Shown here piece after piece: positions 24,848 through 64,000 of a stretch of 64,000 nt of DNA (its first letter is position 1; each line of letters begins with the position of its first letter). The notes under the pieces are model-generated. The model did no database searches. It was not told the origin of the DNA and saw only the letters and a program-made list of their open reading frames with translations. The translations under genes were made by a program, and so were the position numbers. The stretch is from Herbiconiux solani NBRC 106740 (GTDB lineage: Bacteria; Actinomycetota; Actinomycetes; Actinomycetales; Microbacteriaceae), in assembly GCF_001571005.1 (NCBI RefSeq), contig NZ_BCST01000004.1:62001-126000 (forward strand). The letters run 5' to 3'.

Positions 24848-27352
24848 TCAGAGACCGGCCCGGAGTACCGCCGGTGCCGCCACCCGCGAGACGAGGAGGT
24901 CGAGGGCCGCCCAGGCAGCACGGCGCCCGATCCCGAGGTGCCGGGCGTAGACGGCGAAGTACTCCAGCTCGGGCTCCGCCCCACGATGGCGTTTGAAGTC
25001 GGCGACGCCGCTCGAGGCGTGCAGGTCGGCGCTCTCGTCGTGCGCGGTGCGGGCGATCAGGTAGCTCAGCATCCGGTACAGCCCCGCCTCCTGCGGCAGG
25101 GTCGTGTCGTACCCGACGACGGGAGCGGCCAGCAGGCCGTGCGCGACCGTGTACCCGATGACGCCGTCGATCCGTCCGTCCCGCTCGAGGAGGAGGAAGC
25201 TGAGGAGACCCGAGCGCTGGGCGAGCGCAATGAACTCGGGCGAGTAATCGGGGTTCAGGCGGGAGTACTTGCCGAGGTAGAGCATGCCGTAGAGCTCGGC
25301 GATCCGCTCGAGCGTCGCGCGACCCGAGACCCCCGTCTCCGGGTCGATCTCAGCGGGGCGCACGGCGTAGCCCGATCCCTCGAGCAGGGCGCGGTCGCGC
25401 CCGACGTCGCGGAGGCTCTCCCACTCGGCGTCCCGCGTCGGCGCGAAGAGCACGCTCCGCGACGGGATGAGGCGGTACCCGTTCTGTCGCAGCGACTCCG
25501 GGAGGCGGCTGCCGCGACCGTGCACGCTTCGCCAGGCGATTGCGAGCTCCGGATGCGCGGCGGCGAGCCGCCCGGTCACGTCGGCGACGGCGGCCTCCCC
25601 CAGGTCCGGCAGCAGGTTGGTCGAGACGAGCGCGTTCCCCACGATCGCGACGTCGTCGGCGCGCCCGGCGCGGAGCACCCGCTCGAGCACCGCCAACGCC
25701 GCGCTGCCGGCGACCCGGGCGGCCCTCGACTCGACCAGCCGCAACTCTTCGCGGGCGTAGTGCACGTAGTGGGTGATCGGCGAGACGACGTAGCTCGCGG
25801 GGATCGTGACGGGATGGTCGGTGGAAGTTGAGCGGGGACGAGTGAGAGGGAGCAGGATTCCCGCCGCCTCGATCCCCTCCACGACGACGTCCGCGTTCTC
25901 GACCAGCGGGTGGCATCCGGGGGCCGTGGCAGCTTCCGTGAAGCCGGCGACGAATTCGCCCGCCCGCGGTGCCACCGGGGCCCGATCGGCCAGGAGGGGT
26001 TCGCCGTTCCACTCGATGTCGTGGGTAGAGGCGGCGAGCAAGGGAACCCGCGCGCGGAACGCGGTGGACAGCTGCACGGCGAGCGAACGCGCGAGGATGA
26101 CCGGCGGTACCGCGTCGCCCGGAGACCGAAGGACGTCCGGCGACCGCAGCTGCCGGGCGAAGCGCCGCACGTCGGCCACCGAACGCAGGGCGGGGAGGCC
26201 GTAGAGCACGTGGGGAAGACCGAGTCGCGCCGACGCCCGTCCACCTTCGACGACAGGGCCGGGCCGAGACGGATCGATGGGACGCACGAAGGCCGCGGGG
26301 AGGTCGTCGGCGGGCGTGAAGAGGTGCAGCCCGCTCGTCGCACGGGGATTGCACTCGAGCACGACCACCTGCCCAGGCCGGCCCGCCGGCTCGGGCCGGC
26401 CGGCCTGCCCGAGCCGGGAGTCGTCGGGTCCGGGGCGAGCCTCGGTCCGCTCGATCAGGTCGAGACCGAACTGACCGGTGAGGTCGAGTTCGGCGGCGAG
26501 CAGCGAAGCGATGCGACGGGCCTCGACCGCGGCCGGACCACGCGGGTCGAGTCGCTCGAACGCGACCCCGGCACCCGCGCCGGCCCGCGACACCGACCGG
26601 TACGACACGAAGGCCGTCAGCTGCCCCGCCACCGCAACCGCGTGGGCGCTGAACTCGTCGCCGACGACCCGCTCCTGCACGACCCACTGCTCGTCGCGCG
26701 TCACACGACCCGGATCGGGCAGTTCCTCCCCCGTCCCGACGAACAGTGTCCGCGCGCCGAAACGGGAGAACGCCGGCTTCACGACGAGCGCCCCTGACAC
26801 CACCGCCCCTGTCGCACGCCCCGAGCCGGCCGCTCGGGCCGCCCGGGCCGCCCGTCGCCGCTTCTCGGACAACCGGCGCCACTGCAGGCGGGAGGCGACG
26901 ATCGTGGTGTCCGGCTGCGGGATGCCGAGTGTGCCCAACAGCTCCGAGAACGCCGCCTTGTCGTGCACTCTGCGCAGTGTGTCGGGTGGAGGCGCGAACA
27001 GAGGCATCCCGGCGATGACGGACGTCTCTGCCCCGAGCGGCGAACCGGCGTCACCGCGGGCGCGGCGTTCGCGGGCCTCGGCGACGACCGCGGCCAGCCA
27101 GAAGATCTCCTCGTTGCACGGGATCACCAGGTCGACTGCATGGCGCCGGGCGATGCCCGCAATCGCCGCCGCGAACTCCCGCGGGCGGAAGCGTGCCGAC
27201 GGCACCCGGTAGGCCTTCCCGACCGACTTCGACCCCGACGCGAGCGCCGGCTGCGAGTCGGCCACGACGACGAACGCACCCGAAGCCGCGAACTGCCGGG
27301 CCAGTTCGAGCGTCGCCGGGGCGCGCGAGCCCGTCAGGAGGACTGCGGTCAC
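24848..27352 (-). CDS. ATP-grasp ligase fused to a GNAT/BioF2-like acyltransferase
   Basis: 834-residue two-domain protein. N-terminal ATP-grasp: Rossmann-like start (AVLLTGSRAPATLELARQFA), HDKAAFSELLGTLGIPQPDT near 130-148, ATP lysine in LVVKPAFSRFG (Lys192), hinge QERVVGDEF (about 227), and the metal site DLIER (Asp298) with VLECNPRATSGLHLF (Glu333, Asn335). This layout is that of carboxylate-amine ligases related to carbamoyl-phosphate synthetase. C-terminal part (about 640-810) has a GNAT-like fold of the BioF2/FemAB sort, with LYLGKYSRLNPDYS and ADFKRHRGAEPELEYF. The middle (about 400-600) is unassigned. GTG 27352 overlaps the SRPBCC stop by 4 nt. The product is unknown; an amide-forming step followed by acyl transfer is an inference. 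Confidence 0.75.
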   Translation of the reverse strand: MTAVLLTGSRAPATLELARQFAASGAFVVVADSQPALASGSKSVGKAYRVPSARFRPREFAAAIAGIARRHAVDLVIPCNEEIFWLAAVVAEARERRARGDAGSPLGAETSVIAGMPLFAPPPDTLRRVHDKAAFSELLGTLGIPQPDTTIVASRLQWRRLSEKRRRAARAARAAGSGRATGAVVSGALVVKPAFSRFGARTLFVGTGEELPDPGRVTRDEQWVVQERVVGDEFSAHAVAVAGQLTAFVSYRSVSRAGAGAGVAFERLDPRGPAAVEARRIASLLAAELDLTGQFGLDLIERTEARPGPDDSRLGQAGRPEPAGRPGQVVVLECNPRATSGLHLFTPADDLPAAFVRPIDPSRPGPVVEGGRASARLGLPHVLYGLPALRSVADVRRFARQLRSPDVLRSPGDAVPPVILARSLAVQLSTAFRARVPLLAASTHDIEWNGEPLLADRAPVAPRAGEFVAGFTEAATAPGCHPLVENADVVVEGIEAAGILLPLTRPRSTSTDHPVTIPASYVVSPITHYVHYAREELRLVESRAARVAGSAALAVLERVLRAGRADDVAIVGNALVSTNLLPDLGEAAVADVTGRLAAAHPELAIAWRSVHGRGSRLPESLRQNGYRLIPSRSVLFAPTRDAEWESLRDVGRDRALLEGSGYAVRPAEIDPETGVSGRATLERIAELYGMLYLGKYSRLNPDYSPEFIALAQRSGLLSFLLLERDGRIDGVIGYTVAHGLLAAPVVGYDTTLPQEAGLYRMLSYLIARTAHDESADLHASSGVADFKRHRGAEPELEYFAVYARHLGIGRRAAWAALDLLVSRVAAPAVLRAGL

Positions 27353-27840
27353 GCTCCGCCCTCGGCGACGCGGATGCACTCGGCGAGACCCCGGCGCATG
27401 TACGCCATCCAAATCGGCCCGATCACGCGTGCAACGAGCGCACGCCGGCGCGGGAGCGGCCGGAAGCCGTAGCTCCAGCGGATGGTCGACCCGCCCGCCG
27501 CCGGCGCGAACTCCCAGCGCGCCCGGGCGTCCGAGACCAGGCGACCGAGCACTTTCGTGTAGTCGGTGACGTCGTAGTCGAAGCGGCCCCGAGCATCCGG
27601 AGCCGGAGGCCGGTCGTAGCGCACCAGGTGCTCACGGAACCTGCTGCCGTCGGACAGGTGCACGGTGCGCTGCTCGCCGGGCCGCGTCCACGGGCCGGTC
27701 TGCTCCGAGACGCCCGTGACGGCGGGGATGACGAGGAACCGGTGGAAGAGCGTACTGTCGTCGCGCGGCACGACCCGGTCGAACGCCCGCTGCGCGTCGA
27801 CCGCGGTGTCGCCGATGACCGAGAACTCCACGAATTCCAT
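27349..27840 (-). CDS. SRPBCC (START-like) family protein
   Basis: 163-residue protein with the helix-grip pattern: MEFVEFSVIGDTAVDAQRAF (strand, then helix), a central set of strands (RFREHLVRYDRPPAPDARGR, FDYDVTDYTKVLGRLVSDAR) and the long C-terminal helix (RRALVARVIGPIWMAYMRRG) that closes the hydrophobic pocket. SRPBCC proteins bind or transform hydrophobic ligands such as polyketides and lipids. Its ligand is unknown. It is the first gene of a two-gene operon with the ATP-grasp fusion. ATG 27840 is chosen over GTG 27846 because it is 6 nt from the -10 box. Confidence 0.7.
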   Translation of the reverse strand: MEFVEFSVIGDTAVDAQRAFDRVVPRDDSTLFHRFLVIPAVTGVSEQTGPWTRPGEQRTVHLSDGSRFREHLVRYDRPPAPDARGRFDYDVTDYTKVLGRLVSDARARWEFAPAAGGSTIRWSYGFRPLPRRRALVARVIGPIWMAYMRRGLAECIRVAEGGA

Positions 27841-27846
27841 CTGCAC

Positions 27847-27852
27847 ACCGTA
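27847..27852 (-). promoter_or_regulatory. -10 box of the SRPBCC/ATP-grasp operon (leaderless)
   Basis: TACGGT on the minus strand, 6 nt before ATG 27840. Confidence 0.5.
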
Positions 27853-60766: not shown

Positions 60767-61666
60767 TCAAGCCCCGGCGTCGTCCTGCTCGGGCCGCGGC
60801 ACCGTCGTGTACCGGCGCAGCGCCAGAGCCGGGTTCACCCGCCTGACCTCGTCGATCCGCCGCGGGTCGATCCACGCGACCGCGACGTCCTCCCGCTCGC
60901 CGAGCGAGGCGATCGTGACCCCCATCGGGTCGACGATGAGACTCGCCCCGACGCCGACGGGCGGCGTCTGGTCGGCGGCGGCCATGTAGATCGTGTTCTC
61001 CAGGGCCCGGGCGGTGACGAGGCTCCGCCAGTGGTGCTCCTTGAGCGGCCCGCGCACCCATTCGGCCGGGACCGCGACGAGGTCGGCGCCCGCATCCACC
61101 AGCCGGCGCGAGACCTCGGGGAAGCGGATGTCGTAACAGGTCTGCATCCCGATCGTCACGCCTTCGATCGAGAAGGTCTCGGGCGCGGTCAGCGCTCCCG
61201 CTTCGACCCAGTCGCTCTCGCGGCTGCCGAAGGCGTCGTAGAGGTGCTGCTTGCTGTAGGTCGCGACCAGCCCCTCACCCGGCGAGACCGCGACGAGTAC
61301 GTTCGCGAACCGGCCCGGGGTCGATGCCTCGGCGACGAGCCCGGCGATCAGGTGCACGTCGAGCTCGGTCGAGAGCGCGGCGAGGATCGTGACGAAGGGG
61401 CCGTCGAGCGCTTCGGCGTTCTCGACCAGGAGCTCGCCGAGCGGATCGACGAAGTACGAGGAGTACTCGGGGAAGACGACCAGCCGGGCGCCGCGCGCGA
61501 CGGCGAAGCGGGCGAGGCGGGCGATCGTCTCGAGGTTCCCGGCCTTGTCGGGCCCGGGTGCGAACTGGGCCACGGCGACGCCGAAGCCCAGGCCGCCGGG
61601 AGCTGCGACGTCGTAGTGGCGGGGGGCGGCGACGTCGGAGCCGCGGGGCACGCGTTGGCCGGTCAT
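60767..61666 (-). CDS. Carbon-nitrogen hydrolase (nitrilase family)
   Basis: 299-residue amidase-type member. The catalytic triad is seen as Glu in RLVVFPEYSSYFVDPL, Lys in VATYSKQHLYDAFGSRE and Cys in IGMQTCYDIRFPEVSRRLVD. The C-terminal WRSLVTARALENTIYMAAAD completes the sandwich fold. The substrate (an amide, nitrile or omega-amidate such as alpha-ketoglutaramate) is uncertain; the neighbouring aminotransferase would fit an omega-amidase but is on the other strand. ATG 61666 overlaps the alcohol dehydrogenase stop by 4 nt. Confidence 0.88.
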   Translation of the reverse strand: MTGQRVPRGSDVAAPRHYDVAAPGGLGFGVAVAQFAPGPDKAGNLETIARLARFAVARGARLVVFPEYSSYFVDPLGELLVENAEALDGPFVTILAALSTELDVHLIAGLVAEASTPGRFANVLVAVSPGEGLVATYSKQHLYDAFGSRESDWVEAGALTAPETFSIEGVTIGMQTCYDIRFPEVSRRLVDAGADLVAVPAEWVRGPLKEHHWRSLVTARALENTIYMAAADQTPPVGVGASLIVDPMGVTIASLGEREDVAVAWIDPRRIDEVRRVNPALALRRYTTVPRPEQDDAGA

Positions 61667-62700
61667 GACAGCCTCGCCATCGCCTTGACGGCCCGGCGTT
61701 CGTCCATCGCCGCGTAGCCCTCCGGCAGATCCTCGAACGCGACCTCGAGGTCGAAGACGAGGCCCGGCTCGATCACCCCGTCGAGCACCTCGGTGAGGAG
61801 TTCGGGCATCACCGCGCGCACCGGGGCGATTCCGCCGCCGAGGCCGACGTTGTTGCCGAAGGCGATGTTGAGCGGGAACTCGACGCCGTGCGGCATCCCG
61901 ACGAACCCGACCCGCGAGCCCGGGCGCGCGATGGCGAAGGCGGTGGTGAACGACTCGGCGGTGCCGACGCACTCGAGCGTCGCATCCGCCCCGATCCCAT
62001 CGGTGAGCTCGAGCACGGCCTCGACCGCGTCGGCGCCGCGCACCGCGACCAGGTCGGTGGCGCCGAACCGGGTCGCCAGGGCCTGCCGCTCGGGGTTGCG
62101 GCTGAGCGCGATGATCCGCTCGGCGCCCAGGCGCTTCGCCGCGAGCACACCGCTCAGGCCAACGGCGCCGTCGCCGACGACCGCGACGGTGGAGCCGGGC
62201 ACGACGGCGGCGCCGCGGGCGGCATGGAAGCCGGTGCCGTAGACGTCGGTGAGAGCGAGCAGATGCGGGATGAGGGCGTCGTCGGGCCGGCCGCCCGGCA
62301 CGACCACGAGGGTGCCGTCGGCCAGCGGCACGCGCACGAACTCGCCCTGCCCGCCGTCCACGCCCTTTGAGCCCCAGAAGCCGCCATGCACGCACGAGGT
62401 GGTGATGCCGGCGACGCAGTGCACGCAGGTGTTGTCGCTGTACTTGAAGGGCGCCACCACGAAGTCGCCGACGCGCACCTGCCCGACGTCGGTGCCGATG
62501 GCCTCGACCACGCCGATGAACTCGTGGCCGATGCGGGAGCCGGCCGCCTTCGGGGTCTCGCCGCGGTAGTACCAGAGGTCGCTGCCGCAGACGCAGGTCG
62601 CGACCACGCGGACGATGGCGTCCGTGGCGGCGACGATCTCGGGATCCGGAACCTCTTCGACGGCCACCGAGTAGGCGTCGTTGAACACGAGTGCGCGCAT
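61663..62700 (-). CDS. Zinc-dependent alcohol dehydrogenase family protein
   Basis: 345-residue MDR enzyme. Catalytic zinc ligands are in VATCVCGSDLWYYRG (Cys) and SRIGHEFIGVVEAIG (His-Glu); the structural-zinc loop has DNTCVHCVAGITTSCVHGGF. The cofactor motif is VAVVGDGAVGLSGVLAAKRL. It is close to threonine/sorbitol dehydrogenase-like members. First gene of an operon with the nitrilase. ATG 62700 is 6 nt after its -10 box. The 97 bp behind it toward the P450 gene are G-rich with GGCGGGTCGG-like repeats. Confidence 0.92.
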   Translation of the reverse strand: MRALVFNDAYSVAVEEVPDPEIVAATDAIVRVVATCVCGSDLWYYRGETPKAAGSRIGHEFIGVVEAIGTDVGQVRVGDFVVAPFKYSDNTCVHCVAGITTSCVHGGFWGSKGVDGGQGEFVRVPLADGTLVVVPGGRPDDALIPHLLALTDVYGTGFHAARGAAVVPGSTVAVVGDGAVGLSGVLAAKRLGAERIIALSRNPERQALATRFGATDLVAVRGADAVEAVLELTDGIGADATLECVGTAESFTTAFAIARPGSRVGFVGMPHGVEFPLNIAFGNNVGLGGGIAPVRAVMPELLTEVLDGVIEPGLVFDLEVAFEDLPEGYAAMDERRAVKAMARLS

Positions 62701-62706
62701 TTTCCG

Positions 62707-62712
62707 ACTCTA
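62707..62712 (-). promoter_or_regulatory. -10 box of the alcohol dehydrogenase gene (leaderless)
   Basis: TAGAGT on the minus strand, 6 nt before ATG 62700. Confidence 0.55.
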
Positions 62713-62797
62713 CCGGGATCCCGGGGTGGGGTCGGCGGTGGGCGGGTCGGCGGGTGGGGCGGGTCCTGGGGGTCTGCCCGGTCGGCGGGTCGGCCGG

Positions 62798-64000
62798 TCA
62801 GGCGGGCAGGCGCTGGAGCACGAGCTCGGCGTAGCCCGGGATCAGGGTGCCCCGCTGGGCGCGCCGGCGGGTGAGGGCGAGCGGCGCGGTCTCGGCCGCA
62901 TCCAGGACCGCCCCGACGGTCAGCCGGATCTGGGCCATGGCGAGCGGCGCCCCGAGACAGAAGTGCGCACCCGCCCCGAACCAGAGCTGGCGGAGGGATG
63001 CGGCGGGGTTGGCCACCGGGTCGAAGCCGCCCGCGCGACGATCGGCGAGGAAGGTCGCGAGCACCAGCCGGTCGCCTGGGTGCACCGCGACTCCCCCGAT
63101 CTCGGCGGACGCGGCGACGCTCCGGAGCATGACCGGCGACGGGGTGGTCACCCGGAGTCCCTCGGCGATCGCCTGGTCGAGCAGCGAGCGGTCGCGGGCG
63201 AGCACGTCGAGCCACCCGGTGTCGGCGAGCACGGCGACCAGGCGGGGCAGGTACGAGACGAGCGTCTCGGTGCCGGTGAGCACGAAGGCGCCGACCGCGC
63301 CGAGGGCCTCCTCCTCGCTGAGGCCGAGGCGGCGCATTCGGGCGGGGACGGTCTCGGGGTCGGTGGGGGCGGCGACGCGGTCGGATGGTGCGGTAGCCGA
63401 ATCGGCTGCGGCCTGCGCGGCCTCGGGGTCCGCATCCTCGCCACCCGCGGCGTAGGCCGAGCGGGCGTGGTCGGTCAGCTCGGCCAGCACCGCGCGCGCC
63501 CGCCGCACCTGCGACGGCGTGAAGCGGGGCCGGGCGAGAGACACGAACCCGGTGACCGACGAGATCCGGGCGAAGAGCTCCTCGCCCACGACGTCGCGGT
63601 CCAAGCCCACCAGGCGGCTGATCACCTGGCCCGCGTACTCGCGCACCTCGGTGACGAGATCCACCGGTTCACCGCGCGTCAAGCGCCGGGTCAGGGTCTC
63701 GGCCCGGCGCCCGATCGTCTGCTCGGTGAGTGCCTCGACGAACGCGGGCGCGAACAATGGCGCGAGCCGGCGGCGCAGGGCGTGGTGGTCGGCGCCCTCC
63801 ATGTTGAGCAGCACCGACGGGCCGAGCACGGGCGTCCAGAGGTCGGCGGGCGAGCCGGGCCCGGTCTTGGTGAAGCGCTCGGTGTCGAGGAGGATGCTCC
63901 GGAGCAGCCCCGCCTCGGTCACGATCACGCCCACTCCCGGCACCCGCACGACATCGCGACGGATGGCGCTCAGGGCGGGATAGGCGAGCGGATGCGCGGT
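62798..64000 (-). CDS. Cytochrome P450 (N-terminus beyond right edge)
   Basis: At least 400 residues visible. The reading frame stays open to position 64000 with typical P450 sequence (HPLAYPALSAIRRDVVRVPG), so the start lies outside; the GTG at 63949 is internal. Helix I LGAVGAFVLTGTETLVSYLP, EGLRVTTPSPVMLR (ExxR) and the heme cysteine in FGAGAHFCLGAPLAMAQIRL are intact. Monooxygenase of unknown substrate; no ferredoxin or reductase gene is adjacent in the window. Confidence 0.93.
   Translation of the reverse strand, partial: TAHPLAYPALSAIRRDVVRVPGVGVIVTEAGLLRSILLDTERFTKTGPGSPADLWTPVLGPSVLLNMEGADHHALRRRLAPLFAPAFVEALTEQTIGRRAETLTRRLTRGEPVDLVTEVREYAGQVISRLVGLDRDVVGEELFARISSVTGFVSLARPRFTPSQVRRARAVLAELTDHARSAYAAGGEDADPEAAQAAADSATAPSDRVAAPTDPETVPARMRRLGLSEEEALGAVGAFVLTGTETLVSYLPRLVAVLADTGWLDVLARDRSLLDQAIAEGLRVTTPSPVMLRSVAASAEIGGVAVHPGDRLVLATFLADRRAGGFDPVANPAASLRQLWFGAGAHFCLGAPLAMAQIRLTVGAVLDAAETAPLALTRRRAQRGTLIPGYAELVLQRLPA

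Follow-up and report, generated by a model that had tools for sequence, protein, structure and literature searches.

An ATP-Grasp/Double-GNAT Fusion Protein of Herbiconiux solani and Its Probable Place in a Dispersed Pathway to a Fatty-Acid-Derived Natural Product

The Fusion Gene and Its Locus

The DNA examined here, referred to as the window, is a stretch of 64,000 nucleotides (nt) from the soil bacterium Herbiconiux solani NBRC 106740 (positions 62,001 to 126,000 of contig NZ_BCST01000004.1), and the gene of interest in it encodes a fusion of an ATP-grasp enzyme with a double-GNAT transferase. The fusion gene lies on the minus strand at positions 24848–27352 of the window, starts with GTG, and encodes 834 amino acids (aa) free of internal stops. 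On the same strand, an SRPBCC (Polyketide_cyc2) gene occupies 27349–27840, with its stop at 27349 and a conserved ATG start at 27840; a GTG at 27846, six bases upstream, is a possible alternative start. The SRPBCC stop and the fusion start share the 4 nt GTGA (27349–27352, minus strand). An earlier sequence-only reading of this DNA had described two genes with a 4-nt overlap, the second of 834 residues, and this is borne out; its end at 27852 lies about 12 nt too far, as the conserved SRPBCC ATG is at 27840.

The fusion is found in all 15 further sampled Herbiconiux genomes, with an identity of 51–64% over the best segment, and the gene order is kept in the genus: pncB, ABC genes, a small open reading frame (ORF), a helix-turn-helix (HTH) gene, the fusion, the SRPBCC gene, a 96-aa ORF, and a helicase gene. 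Because of this presence and conserved order, the fusion gene is not a chance ORF. The same 4-nt overlap recurs in loci L032–L035, L041–L043, and L045, and in about nine Herbiconiux genomes in total. In four genomes (L031:10643-11680, L037, L039, and L046), a 346-codon frame that by eye is aldo/keto reductase-like splits the SRPBCC gene from the fusion, and the overlap is therefore broken there. No relatives of the fusion were found among viral contigs.

The ATP-Grasp Half

Residues 1–450 (26003–27352, minus strand) form a PylC/PurK-like ATP-grasp half according to profile matches, alignment, and structure comparison. A phmmer search with the whole fusion gave no real match in the PDB, so that predicted folds were needed for comparison. 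The full-length model has a pLDDT of 91.0 and a pTM of 0.90, and the best matches of its N-terminal half are a carbamoyl-phosphate-synthase-like protein (2pn1; VIA Z 23.7) and PylC (4ffl; VIA Z 23.3, 3.2 Å over 289 residues, about 17% identity). Profile scores stay below the cut-offs: the NF005315/PRK06849 match reaches 187 bits under an equivalog cut-off of 406 (stand-alone relatives reach only about 330), and Pfam ATP-grasp_3 gives a sub-threshold 20.3 bits on the fusion protein.

Among 35 ATP-grasp relatives from about 12 phyla, no variation is seen at K132, K192, Q226, D298, E333, N335, or R337, nor at T443 or D445 in the (T)xDIEWNG motif with which the half closes. The active site that the sequence-only reading had called intact (Lys192, Asp298, Glu333, and Asn335) is thus present and, rather than being degraded, is invariant in these relatives and also across 13 close orthologues. 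The predicted fold, the catalytic Lys, and the Asp/Glu/Asn metal ligands in the alignment are those of the ATP-grasp superfamily. The segment 400–600, formerly left unassigned, is resolved by the model into the last ATP-grasp helices, which end at about residue 450, followed by a linker and by the first of the GNAT lobes.

The Double-GNAT Half

Residues from about 484 to 834 (24851–25903, minus strand) form a FemX/MprF-like double-GNAT half, as seen in the structure model, the fold matches, and the alignment. Modelled alone with 52 relatives, this half is predicted at a pLDDT of 94.8 as a double GNAT, with its two lobes in the FemX arrangement that characterizes the FemX/MprF fold class. The fold suggested by its earlier description as a BioF2/FemAB-like acyltransferase is thereby upheld, and the lack of any acyltransferase fold, which would have spoken against that description, was not encountered. 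Invariant residues are E536, N573, T578, R632, Y759-R760, S780, G782, F786-K787, R790, and E797. Pfam Acetyltransf_6 (PF13480, cut-off 22) gives 15.4 bits on the window protein, below the cut-off, and 24.8 bits on a Paraburkholderia homologue.

In Foldseek and VIA comparisons, the folds nearest to this half belong to MprF, FemX, and the streptothricin peptide synthase Sbb17 (an MprF-like DUF2156 entry at about 2e-9 in Foldseek; VIA Z 15.8 and 4.2 Å over 244 residues for FemX; VIA Z 15.5 and 2.9 Å over 217 residues for Sbb17). MprF, Sbb17, and FemX all use aminoacyl-tRNA. The coenzyme A (CoA) pyrophosphate loop [QR]xxGx[GA] has not been conserved; its nearest counterpart, QxxGLY, ends in a position that is Tyr in all 52 aligned rows, and the half does not carry the motif of CoA-dependent GNAT enzymes. 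Both the aminoacyl-tRNA use of the closest folds and the loss of the CoA loop favour aminoacyl-tRNA as the candidate donor. FemX/MprF-type GNAT ligases in secondary metabolism have been reviewed (PMC2922099).

A Gene Cluster around ATP-Grasp and GNAT Genes in Many Phyla

A scan of genome contigs yielded 363 relatives, in which the ATP-grasp and GNAT halves are usually separate genes. The 75 distant loci that were read do not sample these relatives at random: they come mostly from the best-scoring part, with seven loci on plasmids added. Partner genes stand beside the ATP-grasp/GNAT genes in about 60 of the 75, across about 12 phyla. Within the flank, a KAS III and an OleD-like reductase occur in 62 loci, a TIGR02304 ("F390 synthetase-related") adenylate-forming enzyme in 60, a metallo-β-lactamase-type (MBL) hydrolase in 59, and a Rieske protein in 28. 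On annotated plasmids the cluster genes form tight operons, and their families were confirmed by hidden Markov models. The KAS III of these canonical clusters is without the Glu of OleA and resembles MxnB and CorB, its best PDB matches (222 and 217 bits); PDB entry 4v2p is presumably MxnB.

Single-frame fusions occur in Microbacteriaceae, a Deinococcales bacterium, a Cardiobacteriaceae bacterium, a Campylobacterota pair, and one Pseudomonas. On the tree, the split or fused state needs four changes, and the starred branches force at least two. The Deinococcales fusion is the sister of the Microbacteriaceae fusion clade (100/100) and is followed directly by OleD, MBL, TIGR02304, and KAS III genes. 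A description of the cluster was not found in the open-access papers searched, which is not proof of novelty, and searches of those papers on TIGR02304 or PRK06849 returned no matches.

The Partner Operon in Herbiconiux

A TIGR02304 gene is present in all 16 Herbiconiux genomes. On the contig of the window, it heads an operon in the order TIGR02304, OleD-like reductase, KAS III, cytochrome P450, and alcohol dehydrogenase (ADH), which lies just past the window end, about 35–40 kb from the fusion. The tail of this operon, comprising the ADH gene and the greater part of the P450 gene, falls within the window (61663–64000). The P450 gene (62798–64000, minus strand) is cut by the window end and continues to about 64081 (L144:4798-6081). 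The zinc ADH gene (61663–62700, minus strand; L144:3663-4700) forms the 3′ end of the operon and follows the P450 in L145, L146, L148, and L160 as well. The other Herbiconiux loci that were read keep the operon, as does genome G055; the ADH was not found in one of them. Beyond the ADH lies a gene for a carbon-nitrogen hydrolase resembling deaminated-glutathione amidase (60767–61630, minus strand; L144:2767-3630; NF033621 235.6 bits, cut-off 355), which is an uncertain member of the operon. The TIGR02304 protein of this genome scores 355 bits against a cut-off of 252, and the OleD-like reductase 138 bits against an OleD equivalog cut-off of 580.

In the Herbiconiux KAS III, SQDLIEPATSHI aligns to SRDYLEPSTASI of OleA (3row), matching its Glu117 followed by Pro, and the catalytic Cys is aligned. 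A Glu-Pro pair is found in nearly all OleA proteins (PMC7064751). Because of this diagnostic pair and the aligned Cys, the Herbiconiux KAS III is, by sequence, of the OleA type, and it is nearer to OleA and FabH than to MxnB and CorB. KAS III, OleD-like, TIGR02304, ATP-grasp, and GNAT components are all encoded in this genome, but not in one operon. As a separate observation, the operon that extends beyond the right-hand end of the window is by itself a candidate for β-hydroxy acid or β-lactone synthesis.

Co-Occurrence of the Fusion and TIGR02304

Among 400 Microbacteriaceae genomes, the fusion occurs in 13 and TIGR02304 above its cut-off in 18, and all 13 fusion genomes are among those 18 (Fisher p about 1e-20 by genome and 4e-4 by genus, neither corrected for phylogeny). 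In the tree, the Microbacterium fusions nest within those of Herbiconiux. The search for the fusion scored two candidates per genome, and the five TIGR02304-bearing genomes without a fusion were rechecked by profiles; no divergent ATP-grasp/GNAT genes were found in them. These five genomes, which have the trio of KAS III, OleD-like reductase, and TIGR02304 but not the fusion, are as expected if the fusion is a later step.

When 12 loci from beyond the Microbacteriaceae sample, without TIGR02304 near the ATP-grasp/GNAT genes, were tested genome-wide, seven had TIGR02304 elsewhere, and in all five of those that were read, OleD, MBL, and KAS III genes stand beside it. The main exception to this co-occurrence is formed by four Nonomuraea, which are weighed below; another is a Chloroflexi bacterium, in the locus of which only the ATP-grasp was found. 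ATP-grasp/GNAT genes nearly always imply the trio, but not the reverse, and such a one-way implication is what a tailoring step late in the pathway should show.

Proposed Pathway

The interpretation that we consider probable, with somewhat more confidence than doubt, is that the fusion acts as a bifunctional tailoring enzyme in a KAS III/OleD-like/TIGR02304 pathway that leads to a fatty-acid-derived natural product, and that in Herbiconiux the genes of this pathway have become divided between two loci of the same contig. The linkage of the fusion to this pathway is well supported by the sequence families, the invariant residues, the predicted folds, the conservation of the cluster, the co-occurrence, and the Glu-Pro of the Herbiconiux KAS III. 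By the logic of OleA/OleD and lipstatin synthesis (PMC7064751), the expected output of the trio is an activated 2-alkyl-3-hydroxy acid, and the fusion would amidate and (amino)acylate this Ole/lipstatin-like β-hydroxy acid. The substrates, order of steps, donor, and product that we infer are as follows. The OleA-type KAS III would join two acyl chains by Claisen condensation, and the OleD-like reductase would convert the result to the 2-alkyl-3-hydroxy acid. The TIGR02304 enzyme may then adenylate the acid, in place of OleC (which leads to an olefin) or LstC (which leads to lipstatin). Next, the ATP-grasp half would activate a carboxylate as the acyl phosphate and join it to an amino acid, another amine, or a hydroxyl, and the FemX/MprF-like half would attach an (amino)acyl group, for which aminoacyl-tRNA is a possible donor; the fusion would hold these two steps on a single polypeptide. 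Finally, the P450 and the ADH may oxidize the product.

A bolder form of this proposal, which we put forward only tentatively and regard as rather unlikely in its full extent, sees in the fusion the paired ligase for a pan-bacterial class of aminoacyl lipids or β-lactones, so far undescribed and made without a nonribosomal peptide synthetase (NRPS). Here, the KAS III, OleD-like, and TIGR02304 enzymes would make a branched β-hydroxy acid, the ATP-grasp would add one amino acid, and the aminoacyl-tRNA-dependent double GNAT would add a second.

Several findings weigh against the proposed bifunctional tailoring role. The two Herbiconiux loci lie 35–94 kb apart (22 kb in G055) and hence do not form one operon, and the Herbiconiux KAS III is OleA-like, another type than the MxnB/CorB-like enzyme of the canonical clusters. 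No MBL gene was found beside the Herbiconiux operon, the genome itself having only a weak match on another contig, and the OleD-like and PRK06849 matches fall under their equivalog cut-offs. The co-occurrence seen within the family lacks phylogenetic independence, given the dominance of one genus. In four Nonomuraea genomes (loci L087, L104, L112, and L124), the ATP-grasp/GNAT pair is accompanied by no more than a divergent TIGR02304-like match of 86–94 bits, and in the two that were read the divergent gene has no adjoining KAS III or OleD. Lastly, fold similarity lacks the power to identify the donor.

Alternative Interpretations

A variant that we hold possible, if doubtful, keeps the same pathway and differs from the proposal above in donor and step order: the GNAT half would be an acyl-CoA or acyl carrier protein-dependent N-acyltransferase (FeeM-/OlsB-like) that N-acylates an amino acid, after which the ATP-grasp half caps the carboxylate. 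The cluster context provides acyl chains, and the GNAT lobes also match the CoA enzymes VipF and SSAT (Z 12–14), but the invariant Tyr in the place of the CoA loop and the closest whole-length matches, which are aminoacyl-tRNA enzymes, speak against it.

It is unlikely that the fusion stands outside a lipid pathway as a general amidoligase/aminoacyltransferase acting on a peptide, a cell-wall precursor, or a phospholipid in the manner of FemX, MurM, or MprF, its co-occurrence with TIGR02304 being inherited synteny. This would agree with the nearest solved folds of the C-terminal half and with the Nonomuraea pairs lacking a clear trio, but it sits poorly with KAS III, OleD, MBL, and TIGR02304 genes adjoining the pair in so many loci and phyla and with the partner set being encoded elsewhere in genomes that have the pair in isolation.

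The SRPBCC protein matches Pfam PF10604 (Polyketide_cyc2) at 41.8 bits against a cut-off of 27.4, and its relatives, in most cases unaccompanied by the fusion, are spread over 84 of the 400 Microbacteriaceae genomes and 21 of the 85 genera. In another genus, the four loci read have SRPBCC relatives without any of the neighbours of the fusion site, and in G055 the fusion occupies its usual position, flanked by the HTH and helicase genes, but has no SRPBCC gene beside it. That SRPBCC and fusion form a self-contained two-gene unit, with the SRPBCC protein carrying a hydrophobic ligand for amidation by the fusion, is improbable: the genes adjoin in every Herbiconiux genome with the site on one contig and overlap in about nine, but they are parted by the 346-codon frame in four, G055, G284, and two Microbacterium carry the fusion with no adjoining SRPBCC gene, SRPBCC relatives commonly occur where the fusion is missing, and none was found beside the distant ATP-grasp/GNAT genes. 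The SRPBCC gene is a stable, genus-level neighbour of the fusion and a possible helper that binds a lipid intermediate; as a core partner of the pathway it was ruled out by its distribution across the family and the distant loci. The sequence-only reading had joined both genes in a small biosynthetic unit making an amide-linked metabolite or lipid. Its ATP-grasp ligase fused to a FemAB/BioF2-like GNAT stands, and an amide-linked, lipid-like product is probable, but membership of the SRPBCC gene in the unit is not supported: a neighbourhood comparison recovers the pair throughout Herbiconiux where the site is on one contig and nowhere outside the genus, two other fusion-bearing genera having no SRPBCC gene beside the fusion.

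Relation to Known Systems

Like the oleABCD/oleACD systems, Herbiconiux has a KAS III with the OleA Glu-Pro and an OleD-related reductase, and its operon combines an adenylate-forming enzyme with a P450, as does one actinobacterial ole region (PMC7064751). Unlike in those systems, the adenylate-forming enzyme matches TIGR02304 and may or may not act as an OleC β-lactone synthetase, the OleD equivalog cut-off is not reached, and the ATP-grasp and double-GNAT are additional. The lipstatin lst operon (LstA-F) comprises OleA homologues, an OleD-like reductase, an acyl-activating enzyme, amino-acid attachment, and N-capping. The Herbiconiux set shares the first three, and amino-acid attachment and N-capping would follow here too, but with the NRPS LstE and the formyltransferase LstF replaced by the ATP-grasp and double-GNAT.

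PylC, a D-ornithine-lysine ligase, and other ATP-grasp amide ligases share the fold and the invariant ATP/Mg residues with the N-terminal half, but the identity to PylC is low and the Herbiconiux ATP-grasp is fused to a GNAT. FemX, MprF, and Sbb17 have the double-GNAT fold over the whole C-terminal half (Z 14–16), but with 10–13% identity; the relatives of the Herbiconiux protein lie in a fatty-acid-like cluster, and tRNA use is putative here. The cystargolide and belactosin pathways, which we take to have neither KAS III/OleD logic nor a GNAT, are in this respect unlike the pathway of the fusion. They resemble it in that an ATP-grasp enzyme couples amino acids to the warhead acid of the β-lactone (PMC11427300). 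The chain-joining ketosynthases MxnB and CorB are akin to the KAS III of the canonical clusters and not to the Herbiconiux type.

The ATP-grasp/GNAT pair thus marks a compact and widely transferred gene set (Actinomycetota, Bacillota, Pseudomonadota, Deinococcota, Chloroflexota, Campylobacterota, Planctomycetota, and others), every part of which has a recognizable fold and which, as a set, was not found described in the open-access papers searched. Its Ole/lipstatin-like logic, with single-domain ligases instead of an NRPS, predicts a product class and offers a small, expressible set of enzymes with which to test it. Herbiconiux is an example of a pathway that is dispersed yet retains its parts.

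Further Features of the Distant Clusters

On a Rhizobium plasmid (L138:7941-9014), a DUF3419 protein, which we take to be a BtaA-like aminocarboxypropyl transferase, occupies the expected place of the ATP-grasp; this substitution hints at a product with an amino-acid head group. The Rieske 2Fe-2S protein, with a weak VanA_C match (L139:10137-11126 and 27 other loci), accompanies the cluster mainly in Pseudomonadota. Locus L089, labelled Campylobacter jejuni, carries a cluster almost identical to that of Helicobacter valdiviensis, and its label probably reflects a labelling or contamination problem.

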